From a virus, in the IMG/VR virus record IMGVR_UViG_3300047548_000541, positions 1-33,106 of that record: a DNA stretch of 33,106 nucleotides; one strand, 5' to 3'. The notes under the pieces were generated by a model. The model was not told the origin of the DNA. It searched no databases and saw only the letters and a program-made list of their open reading frames with translations. This document shows positions 25,191 through 30,185 of this stretch, piece by piece (the first letter of the stretch is position 1; every line of letters begins with the position of its first letter). Made by a program: the position numbers and the translations under genes.

Positions 25191-26051
25191 ATGAAGAAAA
25201 TACTTGTAACAGGTGCGACTGGTTACATTGGCAGCCATGTATGCAAAGTTTTAAAGCAGCATGGATACCATGTAACTGGGTGGGATATCAACATTCATGG
25301 GGAGTATAACAACATTACTCCCTACATTGATGACTTTAGAGAATGGGATATTACTCATTATGTACGTGGTTCTTTTGACTGTATTGTTCATTTAGCAGCA
25401 AGAGGCAGTGTTCCAGTTAGTTTACGTGAACCAACTGATTACTACCGTGTTAATGCAATGGGCACTGCAAACGTTTTAGATCGTATTGAGAACGATCATT
25501 TTATCTTTGCAAGTTCAAGCTCAGTGTTTAGTATGGTTAGTCCGTATGCACGTAGCAAGATGGCAGCAGAAGATATTATCAAAGAAAAAAGCAGCAACTA
25601 CACTATCTTCCGTTTCTTTAATGTATCAGGCACTGATGGAGTAAATCATCAGTTAGCTAAAACACCACACCTAATCAAAGCTGTTGCACAAGCAATTATT
25701 GGTAAGCGTGATTTCGTTATTAATGGCACCAATTATCTAACCCGTGATGGTACTTGCATACGTGACTATGTTCATGTGTTAGATGTTGCTAACGCTATTG
25801 TTACAGCAATCAACGCTGGACCACAAAACACACCATATGAATGCATCGGTAGTGCAAAAGGATATTCAGTCTTTGATGTTATCCGTGCAATGGAAAAAGT
25901 TACTAATATTAAACTTATGTACAAAGTTGGTCCGCCCCGTGAAGGTGATGCTGTTAGCGCCATTGTGGATAACTTAAGCAGTTTGGTTAAACTTGAAAAG
26001 ACACTCGAAGATATGTGCTGGGATCAGTACTGCTACGAGCTAAAGAATTAA
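25191..26051 (+). CDS. NAD-dependent sugar epimerase/dehydratase (extended SDR)
   Basis: A 286-aa protein: TGATGYIG (7-14) is the NAD loop, Asp32 the ribose-binding acid, HLAARGSVPVS the next conserved block, SSSSVF the active Ser region, and YARSK (Tyr119, Lys123) the catalytic pair. GTCIRDYVHVLDVANAI matches the UDP-galactose 4-epimerase/WcaG branch. It is about 50 aa shorter than GalE. It would supply a nucleotide sugar, perhaps for the glycosyltransferase just upstream. No ribosome binding site is evident in the 7-nt gap. Confidence 0.9.
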   Translation: MKKILVTGATGYIGSHVCKVLKQHGYHVTGWDINIHGEYNNITPYIDDFREWDITHYVRGSFDCIVHLAARGSVPVSLREPTDYYRVNAMGTANVLDRIENDHFIFASSSSVFSMVSPYARSKMAAEDIIKEKSSNYTIFRFFNVSGTDGVNHQLAKTPHLIKAVAQAIIGKRDFVINGTNYLTRDGTCIRDYVHVLDVANAIVTAINAGPQNTPYECIGSAKGYSVFDVIRAMEKVTNIKLMYKVGPPREGDAVSAIVDNLSSLVKLEKTLEDMCWDQYCYELKN

Positions 26052-26099: not shown

Positions 26100-26774
26100 A
26101 TGAAAGTTTCAGAACAGATTCGCCAGCGCATCTTAGATGCAGGGGCAAGGTTTCATAGCAACGACAATATTGCAGAGTTCATTAATGATGGTGAACTAGA
26201 TGCACTAGTAAACGAAGTTGCAGAGCATTTTGAAAAAGTATTAGGCGCGCTAGTAATTGATACTGAGCATGACCACAATACACGGGATACTTCACGCCGT
26301 GTAGCTAAGATGTTTATTCTTGAAACATTTAATGGTCGTTATCGTCCAATACCAAAGGTAACAGCGTTCCCTAACATGGGATACAAGAGTCTTTATACTA
26401 CTGGACCTATTTCTATTCGCAGCACTTGCGCTCATCACTTTCAAAACATTGTTGGTCGTTGCTGGGTTGGTATTGTACCAGAAGATGAAGTAATTGGTCT
26501 AAGCAAGTTCAATCGCCTTGTGCATCACATTTGCGAACGTCCTCAGATTCAAGAGGAAATGACTACGCAGATTGCAGACGCACTTAAGAAGTATGCAAAG
26601 ACAGATAACATTGCAGTTCTTGTTAAAGCAGAACACCATTGCATGACAATGCGCGGTGTACGTGAACATGAAAGCGACATGACCACAGCTATTATGCTTG
26701 GTGCGTTTGATACTCATGCTCCACTTAAGAAGGAGTTCTATGACATTTGTTTGAGTATGAAGGGACATGGCTAA
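26100..26774 (+). CDS. folE: GTP cyclohydrolase I
   Basis: A 224-aa protein, the length of E. coli FolE. Zinc ligands are kept: Cys110 and His113 in STCAHHF, Cys181 in HHCMTMRGV. IGLSKFNRLV and ESDMTTAIMLGAF complete the family motifs. It converts GTP to 7,8-dihydroneopterin triphosphate, the first step of folate, queuosine and 7-deazaguanine DNA modification. The usual CEHH is CAHH here, a change of a conserved Glu. With queD, queE and dpdA in this window its job is probably deazaguanine supply. It overlaps the next gene by one base (TAATG). Confidence 0.96.
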   Translation: MKVSEQIRQRILDAGARFHSNDNIAEFINDGELDALVNEVAEHFEKVLGALVIDTEHDHNTRDTSRRVAKMFILETFNGRYRPIPKVTAFPNMGYKSLYTTGPISIRSTCAHHFQNIVGRCWVGIVPEDEVIGLSKFNRLVHHICERPQIQEEMTTQIADALKKYAKTDNIAVLVKAEHHCMTMRGVREHESDMTTAIMLGAFDTHAPLKKEFYDICLSMKGHG

Positions 26775-28420: not shown

Positions 28421-28462
28421 AGAGGCCTTGACACTCACCCCTCTAAAAGAACTCTGCGTGTC
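28421..28462 (+). ncRNA. Candidate H-type pseudoknot riboswitch (preQ1-I-like) before queD
   Basis: AGAGG (28421-28425) pairs with CCTCT (28440-28444). Inside the loop, GACAC (28430-28434) pairs with GTGTC (28458-28462). The two stems interlock as an H-type pseudoknot, with a 13-nt A-rich third loop starting AAAAGAAC. The segment CACCCCTCTAAAA resembles the conserved CACCCTCTaAAAA end of preQ1-I aptamers, and the 5' AGAGG is the same. AAGGA, the queD ribosome binding site, starts 7 nt downstream. The second stem is longer than usual for preQ1-I, so this may be a variant or a different pseudoknot. Confidence 0.45.
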
Positions 28463-28480
28463 GTACAAAAGGAAAAACTT

Positions 28481-28981
28481 ATGGCAAATACACCTGTATC
28501 ATACAAGTACACATCAACAAAAGAATACGTTAATGCATTTCCATGTGCATATCGTCAGTGGCGTGCGGACAGTCACTGCAATTTAATCCATGGCTATAGC
28601 TTCTCTATGAAGTTTTACTTTGGCACTAATGATTTGGATGCTCGTAACTGGGCAGCAGACTATGGTGGTCTAAAGGAACTTAAGAAGATTTTGGAAGATC
28701 AGTTTGACCATACATTACTAGTAGCAGAAGATGATCCGGAGATCGAAACATTTAAGATGCTACAAGAAAAGAAAATGGCAAAACTTACTATCTTACCCAA
28801 GTTAGGTTGTGAAAGTTTGGCTGATATGCTTTACAAGTATATCAACAGCGTGTATATTCCTGACATGTGGGGACCAAGTGAAGCTGCTAGATTATGGTGT
28901 TATCGTGTTGAAGTTCGCGAAACCCAAGCCAACATGGCATATAGAGAAGGACATCGCGAATGGAACGAAGAATTGATTTAA
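28481..28981 (+). CDS. queD: QueD-like 6-carboxytetrahydropterin synthase, phage type
   Basis: A 166-aa T-fold protein. Cys33 in SHCNLIHGYSF fits the catalytic cysteine, FDHTLLVAEDDPE gives the conserved Asp-His (76-77), and WCYRVEVRETQ the substrate Glu. QueD turns dihydroneopterin triphosphate into 6-carboxytetrahydropterin. Of the three zinc-binding His residues in E. coli QueD, two are Tyr here (Tyr24 in FPCAYRQW and Tyr39 in HGY); only His37 remains. His32 next to the Cys may compensate. AAGGA precedes the ATG, and a pseudoknot lies in the leader. It overlaps the next gene by 22 nt. Confidence 0.85.
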   Translation: MANTPVSYKYTSTKEYVNAFPCAYRQWRADSHCNLIHGYSFSMKFYFGTNDLDARNWAADYGGLKELKKILEDQFDHTLLVAEDDPEIETFKMLQEKKMAKLTILPKLGCESLADMLYKYINSVYIPDMWGPSEAARLWCYRVEVRETQANMAYREGHREWNEELI

Positions 28982-29157: not shown

Positions 29158-29350
29158 TTACCCTAAGGATTTAGGTAACAATCGTTGGATTGTAGAAGTG
29201 CGTACACAGGGCGGGAGCGATGAACTATACATTGAACTCCCGCCCAGTGCGTTAAATCAAATGGGCTGGGATGCCGGCGACAAAATTGAATGGATCCAAC
29301 AAAAAGATGGATCATATATGCTAATGAAGGCAAATGATGAGCAAGATTAA
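29150..29350 (+). CDS. AbrB/MazE-like swapped-hairpin protein
   Basis: A 66-aa protein. LPPSALNQMGWDAGDKIEWI then DGSYMLMKA follows the AbrB/SpoVT DNA-binding pattern (L-P..al..lgw..GD.i.w....gs..l.k). Such domains bind DNA as dimers and often regulate transcription; in phages their targets are mostly unknown. It overlaps queE by 14 nt, so an effect on the queD-queE operon is a reasonable guess. Confidence 0.68.
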   Translation: MSNYPKDLGNNRWIVEVRTQGGSDELYIELPPSALNQMGWDAGDKIEWIQQKDGSYMLMKANDEQD

Positions 29351-30185
29351 AGTAGCAGAACTATTTTATAGTTTACAAGGAGAGGGACAATACATTGGAG
29401 TACCTTCCATATTTCTTAGGACTTTTGGCTGTAATTTTACTTGCGGCGGATTCGGCATGGCTAGGGGAGAAGTATCCAGGGAACGTGATCTCATTGACCC
29501 TAATAGTTACAGCAGCTACAGTGAGCTTCCTCTGGTTTCAACCGGTTGTGACAGTTATGCTAGTTGGGATCCTAAATTTAAGCATCTTAGTCCTGTATTG
29601 GAAGTTAGTTCTATCATTGAGAGATTCAAAGAACTCCTCCCAGGCGGAACGTTTGGACGAGACAAACACCTAATCATCACGGGTGGTGAACCTCTACTTG
29701 GTTGGCAGCGTTCTTATCCAGAGCTTATTGCAGCATGTATGGACATTGGGCTAACACATTTAACATTTGAAACAAATGGCACACAACCATTATCAGAGGA
29801 GTTGTGGGGTTTCCTTAACAGCAAGGCAGTGTGGCCTGGACTTGAGGTTACATTTAGTATCTCAGCCAAGCTACCATGCAGTGGCGAAGCTTGGGAAGAA
29901 GCTATTCGTCCTGATGTTGTTAAGAAGTACACTACAATTAAAGATCATCGAAGCTACTTTAAGTTTGTTGTTAGCACACAGCAAGATGTTGAGGATGCTA
30001 TGCGAGCAAAGAAGGAATACGAAGCTGCTGGTATTAACATTCCTGTGTATCTTATGCCTGTTGTCGGTGTTAATCATGTATATGAATTAAACGAGCGTCA
30101 GGTTGCAGACTTTTGTCGTGACAACGGGTTACGTTTTAGCCCACGTATTCAAGTGCCGCTATATAAGAATGCATGGGGCACATGA
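29337..30185 (+). CDS. queE: QueE-like 7-carboxy-7-deazaguanine synthase (radical SAM)
   Basis: A 282-aa protein. FYSLQGEGQYIGVPSIFLRT is the QueE N-terminus; GCNFTC gives Cys32 and Cys36, and GCDSYASWD gives the third cluster Cys (71), 34 residues further on. This differs from the common CxxxCxxC and Cx14CxxC patterns. ITGGEPLLGWQ and FETNGTQPL complete the radical SAM and substrate motifs. The product is CDG, made from 6-carboxytetrahydropterin. I chose ATG 29337 because AAGG lies 6 nt upstream; ATG 29334 is adjacent. A 92-aa open frame overlapping the 5' half is taken as a shadow. It overlaps the next gene by 4 nt. Confidence 0.93.
   Translation: MSKIKVAELFYSLQGEGQYIGVPSIFLRTFGCNFTCGGFGMARGEVSRERDLIDPNSYSSYSELPLVSTGCDSYASWDPKFKHLSPVLEVSSIIERFKELLPGGTFGRDKHLIITGGEPLLGWQRSYPELIAACMDIGLTHLTFETNGTQPLSEELWGFLNSKAVWPGLEVTFSISAKLPCSGEAWEEAIRPDVVKKYTTIKDHRSYFKFVVSTQQDVEDAMRAKKEYEAAGINIPVYLMPVVGVNHVYELNERQVADFCRDNGLRFSPRIQVPLYKNAWGT

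Follow-up and report, generated by a model that had tools for sequence, protein, structure and literature searches.

A conserved pseudoknot in the leader of phage queD genes: a probable cis-regulatory RNA and candidate riboswitch

The leader of the queD gene in a viral record (IMG/VR IMGVR_UViG_3300047548_000541), the whole 33,106-nucleotide stretch of which was analysed and is here called the window, probably regulates that gene in cis, and the likeliest reading is a metabolite riboswitch belonging to no class in Rfam. On strong comparative evidence it is a real structured RNA, widespread among uncultivated phages, and very probably a switch for the translation of queD. The comparison establishes two helices (P1 and P2), the extra predicted pairs that continue P2, the overlap of P2 with an alternative helix (P3) that covers the ribosome binding site (RBS), and the tie to queD.

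In the window, P1 and P2 form an H-type pseudoknot on the plus strand, the 3' end of which lies 18 nt ahead of the queD start codon. The 5' strand of P1 (AGAGG, 28421..28425), drawn from the sequence and from covariation, pairs with CCUCU (28440..28444), and the 5' strand of P2 (GACAC, 28430..28434) pairs with GUGUC (28458..28462), the putative switching strand, so that the two helices of the original prediction, AGAGG/CCTCT and GACAC/GTGTC, are found exactly where it had placed them. The loops are L1 (CCUU, 28426..28429; N-C-U in the family), the L2 stretch UCACC between GACAC and CCUCU, and L3 (28445..28454; NUANAAAYUC in the family, with A3, A7, U9 and C10 invariant), which belongs to the segment AAAAGAACUCUGC between CCUCU (28440-28444) and GUGUC (28458-28462). 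A C and an A of L2 (28436..28437), partners of the UG on the L3 side (28455..28456), extend P2 beyond a U28435/C28457 mismatch, and an invariant C (28439) stands immediately 5' of the 3' strand of P1, at the position of the preQ1-I specificity base. A Shine-Dalgarno-like AAAAGGA (28467..28473), whose role is suggested by its letters, precedes the presumed controlled gene, queD of the PTPS family (28481..28981, ATG at 28481; PF01242, E 2.5e-16), which has folE, for GTP cyclohydrolase I, upstream (26100..26774; PF01227, E 2.4e-45) and a queE-like radical SAM gene downstream (29334..30185; phrog_2076, E 5e-49), all on the plus strand. On the plus strand of the window, a strict search for this layout gave 28421 alone, and the minus strand has a single match, with 0.2 per strand in shuffled windows; it is the conservation of the predicted pseudoknot that puts it far above chance.

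This conservation was followed in relatives of the window's QueD on viral contigs. Among the best 80 of at least 595 such relatives, the motif lies upstream of queD in 79 loci, the exception (L005) being at a contig edge with 37 nt of upstream DNA, and a covariance model of P1 only (R1), built on 59 distinct aligned cores, recovers it in the identical 79 loci and in the window. In a second, more distant set, made up of the 80 loci closest to ACP17 QueD (ACP17 being an Acidovorax phage), the motif is present in 65 and absent from 15 (L246, L256, L258, L262-L264, L266, L267, L282, L283, L289, L293, L300, L303 and L315). From two further sets, which add 159 loci, 116 motifs were parsed; two of these were false (R=T, Y=T) and were removed before merging, and 43 loci are without the motif. 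The QueD loci of these later sets that gave no motif (15 of 80 and 43 of 159) count against the explanation preferred here. Given that the locus sets share contigs, the counts below were made on distinct motifs. Among the 43 motif-less loci, L332 and L337 resemble, by eye, variants with a P1 of 4 bp; the leaders of L332, L434, L337 and L338 have such a P1 and a GGG/CCC-like P2, and include both UCA/UCUG and UCG/UCCG forms. The motif family is broader than model R1 covers.

The tie to queD was also seen from the opposite side, through a pattern scan made without reference to this gene, which yielded at least 120 viral stretches. Among the matches listed, QueD is the next ORF for 114 of 119 viral motifs, in three (L120, L128 and L153) one ORF, a cupin in L120 and a protein of 243 aa with no Pfam match in L128, intervenes before QueD, and the last two (L135 and L204) are at contig ends. 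In 45 whole records (the window and 44 chosen, mostly larger contigs) there is exactly one strong match each, scoring 41 bits or more, and no second match in any of them exceeds 19.8 bits. Possible bacterial copies were rejected, as the five matches in a pattern scan of genome contigs, from four Magnetococcales contigs and one Candidatus Paralachnospira contig, are all without the 5' strand of P1 and none precedes a QueD ORF. Searches of named phages by blastn with three leaders gave no match spanning the motif (the Vibrio matches were of 24 nt only, at the query end), and R1 found nothing above 11 bits in seven QueD-surrounding regions of named phages, so that ACP17, the closest named phage, is without the motif there.

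Covariation in related phages, which the original prediction had called for, is present in both helices. In the 59 distinct cores, 99.0% of the P1 cells are paired (86.8% when shuffled), there are 25 two-sided changes (3.2 when shuffled), and the covariation score is 0.280, against 0.043 for shuffled and at most 0.045 for slid versions. Among 149 distinct motifs, P1 pair 3 is C-G in 118, A-T in 20 and T-A in 11, pair 2 is G-C in 139, C-G in seven, T-A in one and mismatched in two, and pair 5, the floor of the helix, is G-C in 148. Three half motifs had been removed before this count; L067, which has lost the 5' strand of P1, was retained in the MAFFT alignment (A1) and in the 149 as a P1-mismatch row, and one of 150 motifs (L089:8-50, 24 bits) remained unparsed and is outside the 149.

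As A1 misregisters P2, this helix was counted by script and compared with a permutation in which the 3' strands were redistributed among the motifs 1000 times, with relatedness left in. Its longest uninterrupted stretch has a mean of 3.66 bp, against 2.66 in the permutations (sd 0.10, maximum 2.94), and the duplex energy is -4.86 kcal/mol, against -3.59 kcal/mol, relatedness being left in here as well. At least 4 bp are uninterrupted in 97 of the 149 motifs and at least 3 bp in 120, and the 52 motifs with fewer than four such pairs count against the explanation preferred here.

Three features go beyond the original prediction, namely the breadth of the family, a pairing between L2 and L3, and a helix that the P2 3' strand can form with the RBS and that excludes the knot. 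The L2-L3 pair joins the L2 base after UC to the L3 base after UUC, and is A-U in 139 and G-C in 10 of the 149 distinct motifs, with no other combination; once the later sets are added, the 183 unique motifs divide into 164 with A-U and 19 with G-C, again with no others. The G-C form occurs in five P1 backgrounds, and on a tree of 171 QueD proteins, a quick tree with many open forks, the state of the pair changed at least 14 times, six of these changes being forced by branches of at least 95; a second tree was made without three long-branch rows (L103, L092 and L153). Given that the C before and the G after this covarying pair are invariant, P2 would run on beyond the U/C mismatch through a C-G and an A-U/G-C pair.

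Mutual information with average-product correction (179 motifs) ranked P1 pair 3, the L2-L3 pair and P1 pair 2 highest, followed by P1 pair 3 with L3 base 4. Where pair 3 is C-G, 128 of the 134 motifs have C or U at this L3 base, and where it is A-T or T-A all 45 have A, a coupling that would be expected of a loop lying in the groove of P1, and to which shared descent could add. The C directly before the 3' strand of P1 is found in 149 of 149 and in 179 of 179 motifs, and the L3 base before the L2-L3 pair is likewise C in all 179, while the first base of L1 is T in 74, C in 65 and A in 40 of the 179, with no conserved U.

The folding of the DNA 3' of the aptamer left the Shine-Dalgarno (SD) sequence mostly paired in 126 of 149 leaders. 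In 137 distinct platforms, the first 13 nt from the P2 3' strand have a mean score of complementarity to the SD or start codon of 14.9, which falls to 12.9 (sd 0.16) for RBS regions exchanged among motifs and to 9.7 (sd 0.18) for RBS regions with scrambled letters. In a search of the whole leader, the stretch that best complements the RBS shares bases with the P2 3' strand in 138 of 149 cases and lies upstream in 11, and with shuffled RBS letters such an overlap occurs in 16 of 149. A pairing of the SD with L1 (CCUU/AAGG in the window) was also considered, and was dropped on inspection of the leaders by eye, without counting.

The commonest form of P3 is CCUAUG/CAUAGG on the SD (71 platforms, plus variants), other forms lie on the start codon (UGUCAUC/GAUGGCA and UGUCAUUG/CAAUGGCA), and further ones are UGUCUUC/GGAGACA, ACUCC/GGAGU, CCUC/GAGG and CCUAUA/UAUAGG, so that the types of P3 vary in letters yet stay paired. 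In the window, UGUCGUA (28459..28465), which overlaps the P2 3' strand and is the alternative partner of the start-codon region, pairs with UAUGGCA (28480..28486), which includes the queD start codon and in which the AUG is buried. In 129 of 149 leaders P3 has a lower energy than the P2 duplex, the means being -7.8 and -4.9 kcal/mol, respectively, when the loop and coaxial terms of the pseudoknot are omitted. As the strand that best complements the SD or start codon is in most leaders the 3' strand of P2, the knot and P3 should be mutually exclusive, although in the commonest platform P3 has only the CC of the P2 strand in common with P2, and the exclusion there would be partial.

Given this exclusion, a translational switch that turns ON upon the stabilisation of the knot is predicted, since anything that stabilises P2 should free the RBS from the strand common to P2 and P3. 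Two marks of a riboswitch are found in the predicted structures: a metabolic gene has a conserved, structured domain in its 5' leader, and the expression platform can adopt a fold that excludes the aptamer. The aptamer would be made up of a P1 of 5 bp and a P2 of 4-5 bp, continued by the U/C mismatch, the C-G pair and the A-U/G-C pair, with the invariant C unpaired beside P1 and an A-rich L3 along P1. With no ligand, P3, the more stable helix, would cover the start site, and a ligand held between P1 and P2 would stabilise P2 and withdraw its strand from P3, so that closing the knot would open the RBS and allow the translation of queD.

We infer from this arrangement the binding of a small molecule, the reading of its guanine-like face by the invariant C, and the direction of the regulation. 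Our leading guess for the ligand is a deazaguanine or a pterin of the FolE-QueD-QueE pathway, and a guanine nucleotide would be another candidate with a guanine-like face. In its most specific form, which is put forward only tentatively, the proposal is of a new, phage-only riboswitch class with a preQ1-I-shaped knot, in which P2 has been rewired to capture the anti-RBS strand and queD is turned ON by an intermediate of the phage's own FolE-QueD-QueE pathway. Such a feed-forward control of deazaguanine synthesis could respond, for example, to dihydroneopterin triphosphate or CDG.

Many phages make 7-deazaguanines, which protect their DNA. Among the 45 motif-carrying records, QueE-like genes are present in 39 at E below 1e-40 and in 43 at E 0.001, some of the latter probably being other radical SAM proteins, and QueC exceeds the cut-off in five, every match being partial. 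The TGT domain, which is the fold of DpdA, was found in none of these 45, many of which are fragments, though folE, queD and queE are common in them. Within 5 kb of queD, in 81 neighbourhoods from records that are in many cases fragments, 52 have a FolE-like and 50 a QueE-like gene, and the gene set fits the synthesis of CDG or a derivative. Genes for sugar-nucleotide epimerase (32), glycosyltransferase-like (29), cytidylyltransferase-like (27) and aminotransferase-like (13) proteins also cluster near queD in the 81 loci, with 25191-26051 as the place in the window, all of these names except the epimerase having been given by eye.

In the 45 nt upstream of P1, ATAA(A/G)TA occurs 69 times in 147 leaders, against 6.9 when shuffled, a 10-fold excess, mostly 11-18 nt before P1, although the window is without it in that place. 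This element, which we take to resemble a T4 late promoter, would as a promoter start the RNA near P1, and the stop codons of the preceding gene may also explain it. A TTGAC(A/T) stands around -35 to -43 in a few leaders, and together the two elements suggest a transcription start near the aptamer.

At three loci, an ORF of 183-188 aa has ahead of it a half motif, which is the P1 hairpin lacking L3 and the P2 3' strand, and the full motif, with other letters in its stems, stands further on, before queD. These are L018 (2217-2242, ORF 2272-2823, with a NUMOD3 match), L076 (1358-1383, ORF 1414-1974, with no NUMOD3 match) and L321 (810-837, ORF 855-1421). The ORFs look like homing endonucleases, which seem to have carried half a switch along as they moved.

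The open-access literature, outside of which lie most subscription papers and all bioRxiv preprints, yielded no riboswitch before phage queD and no description of the regulation of phage deazaguanine synthesis. The word "riboswitch" is absent from the available portions of PMC6884629, on phage deazaguanines, as queuosine and preQ1 both are from those of PMC2864571, on 104 RNA candidates. A widespread phage leader with a knot, a covarying extra pair and an exclusive RBS hairpin would represent a directly testable orphan riboswitch.

The main rival to a metabolite riboswitch, which we judge unlikely though worth serious attention, is that the pseudoknot is a protein-binding translational operator for QueD itself or for a phage repressor or activator, as the leader pseudoknot of T4 gene 32 is an operator for gp32. 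Since the motif is found only before queD, its gene context fits metabolite sensing and protein autoregulation alike; the one copy per record, only before queD among the matches listed, suits autoregulation, and the exclusion between P2 and P3 would be equally workable with a protein that holds the knot. However, the invariant unpaired bases near the predicted P1/P2 junction resemble a small-molecule pocket or tertiary core more than a surface for a protein, and the architecture parallels that of preQ1-I.

A second rival is a genuine PreQ1-I riboswitch, responsive to preQ1 or preQ0, that has diverged too far for the Rfam model to detect. It would share the topology, the G-C floor, the C at the specificity position and the U that mostly precedes it (133 of 149 motifs), all of which are found here. 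The Rfam check proposed with the original prediction nevertheless came back without PreQ1, as the window and 20 relatives gave nothing at gathering cut-offs except one tRNA, and four single leaders gave no PreQ1 match at E up to 10. The first base of L1 is not a conserved U, the L3 base adjoining P2 is C, and the anti-RBS nature of the P2 strand means that a ligand would turn expression ON, which together make this second rival improbable. Other low-scoring Rfam matches were set aside as chance, namely freshwater-2 RNA (RF02980), at 12.8 bits and E 7 in the window leader against a gathering cut-off of 49.9, and matched in L017 by the SD and start codon only, and Yfr17, ZNRD1-AS1, Teg23 and STnc410, which scored 9 to 13 bits where the cut-offs are about 50 or higher. 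Finally, a structured RBS with no ligand, in which the knot and hairpin tune or time translation through folding kinetics or temperature, could have its basal level set by the competition between P2 and P3 alone, but the strict retention of unpaired bases across very different P1, P2 and P3 helices would then need another reason, and such a case is highly improbable.

The metabolite riboswitch preferred here may be compared with known systems. The T4 gene 32 knot is similarly a phage 5' leader pseudoknot that acts on translation, but its ligand is a protein and its gene differs. PreQ1-II (RF01054) and preQ1-III (RF02680) share the translational control of deazaguanine-related genes, but have larger HLout folds, according to the available portions of PMC11625349, and no Rfam match to them was obtained for the queD motif.

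PreQ1-I (RF00522; types I-III) is the closest in shape, since it too stands in the leader of a gene of the deazaguanine pathway and folds about 40 nt into an H-type pseudoknot, with a G-C-closed P1 of 5 bp, a C before the 3' strand of P1 and an A-rich L3, and the usual U before the invariant C recalls the type I consensus given in the available part of PMC11625349. As far as the accessible portions of PMC11625349 and PMC10622847 go, class I members rely on this C, the G-C floor, an A of L3 and U6 of L1, and in those that act on translation the knot conceals the SD; U6, at the start of L1, reads N9 of the ligand (PMC11625349, in part). The resemblance to preQ1-I claimed by the original prediction therefore holds for the skeleton, the closed P1, the invariant C and the A-rich L3, and fails for the conserved U of L1 and for the A at the L3/P2 junction, which in PreQ1-I reads N3/N2 of the ligand and the presumed equivalent of which is here an invariant C. 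The motif also differs in its longer P2, with a mismatch and two extra pairs, in the spacing of 13 nt from the P1 3' strand to the main P2 strand, and in being found in phages only, in this survey. What had been proposed as a riboswitch on a phage queD stands as a conserved, covarying, pseudoknotted and probably cis-regulatory RNA, preQ1-I-like in its predicted architecture, which we do not file as PreQ1, and its RBS logic differs as well. In PreQ1-I, as described in the portions of the sources available, P2 sequesters the SD or a terminator and the ligand turns expression OFF, whereas the P2 3' strand of the queD motif complements the RBS and an ON response is predicted. If an ON switch on this preQ1-like skeleton is real, one fold would have been turned to the opposite regulatory sign, probably with a new ligand.
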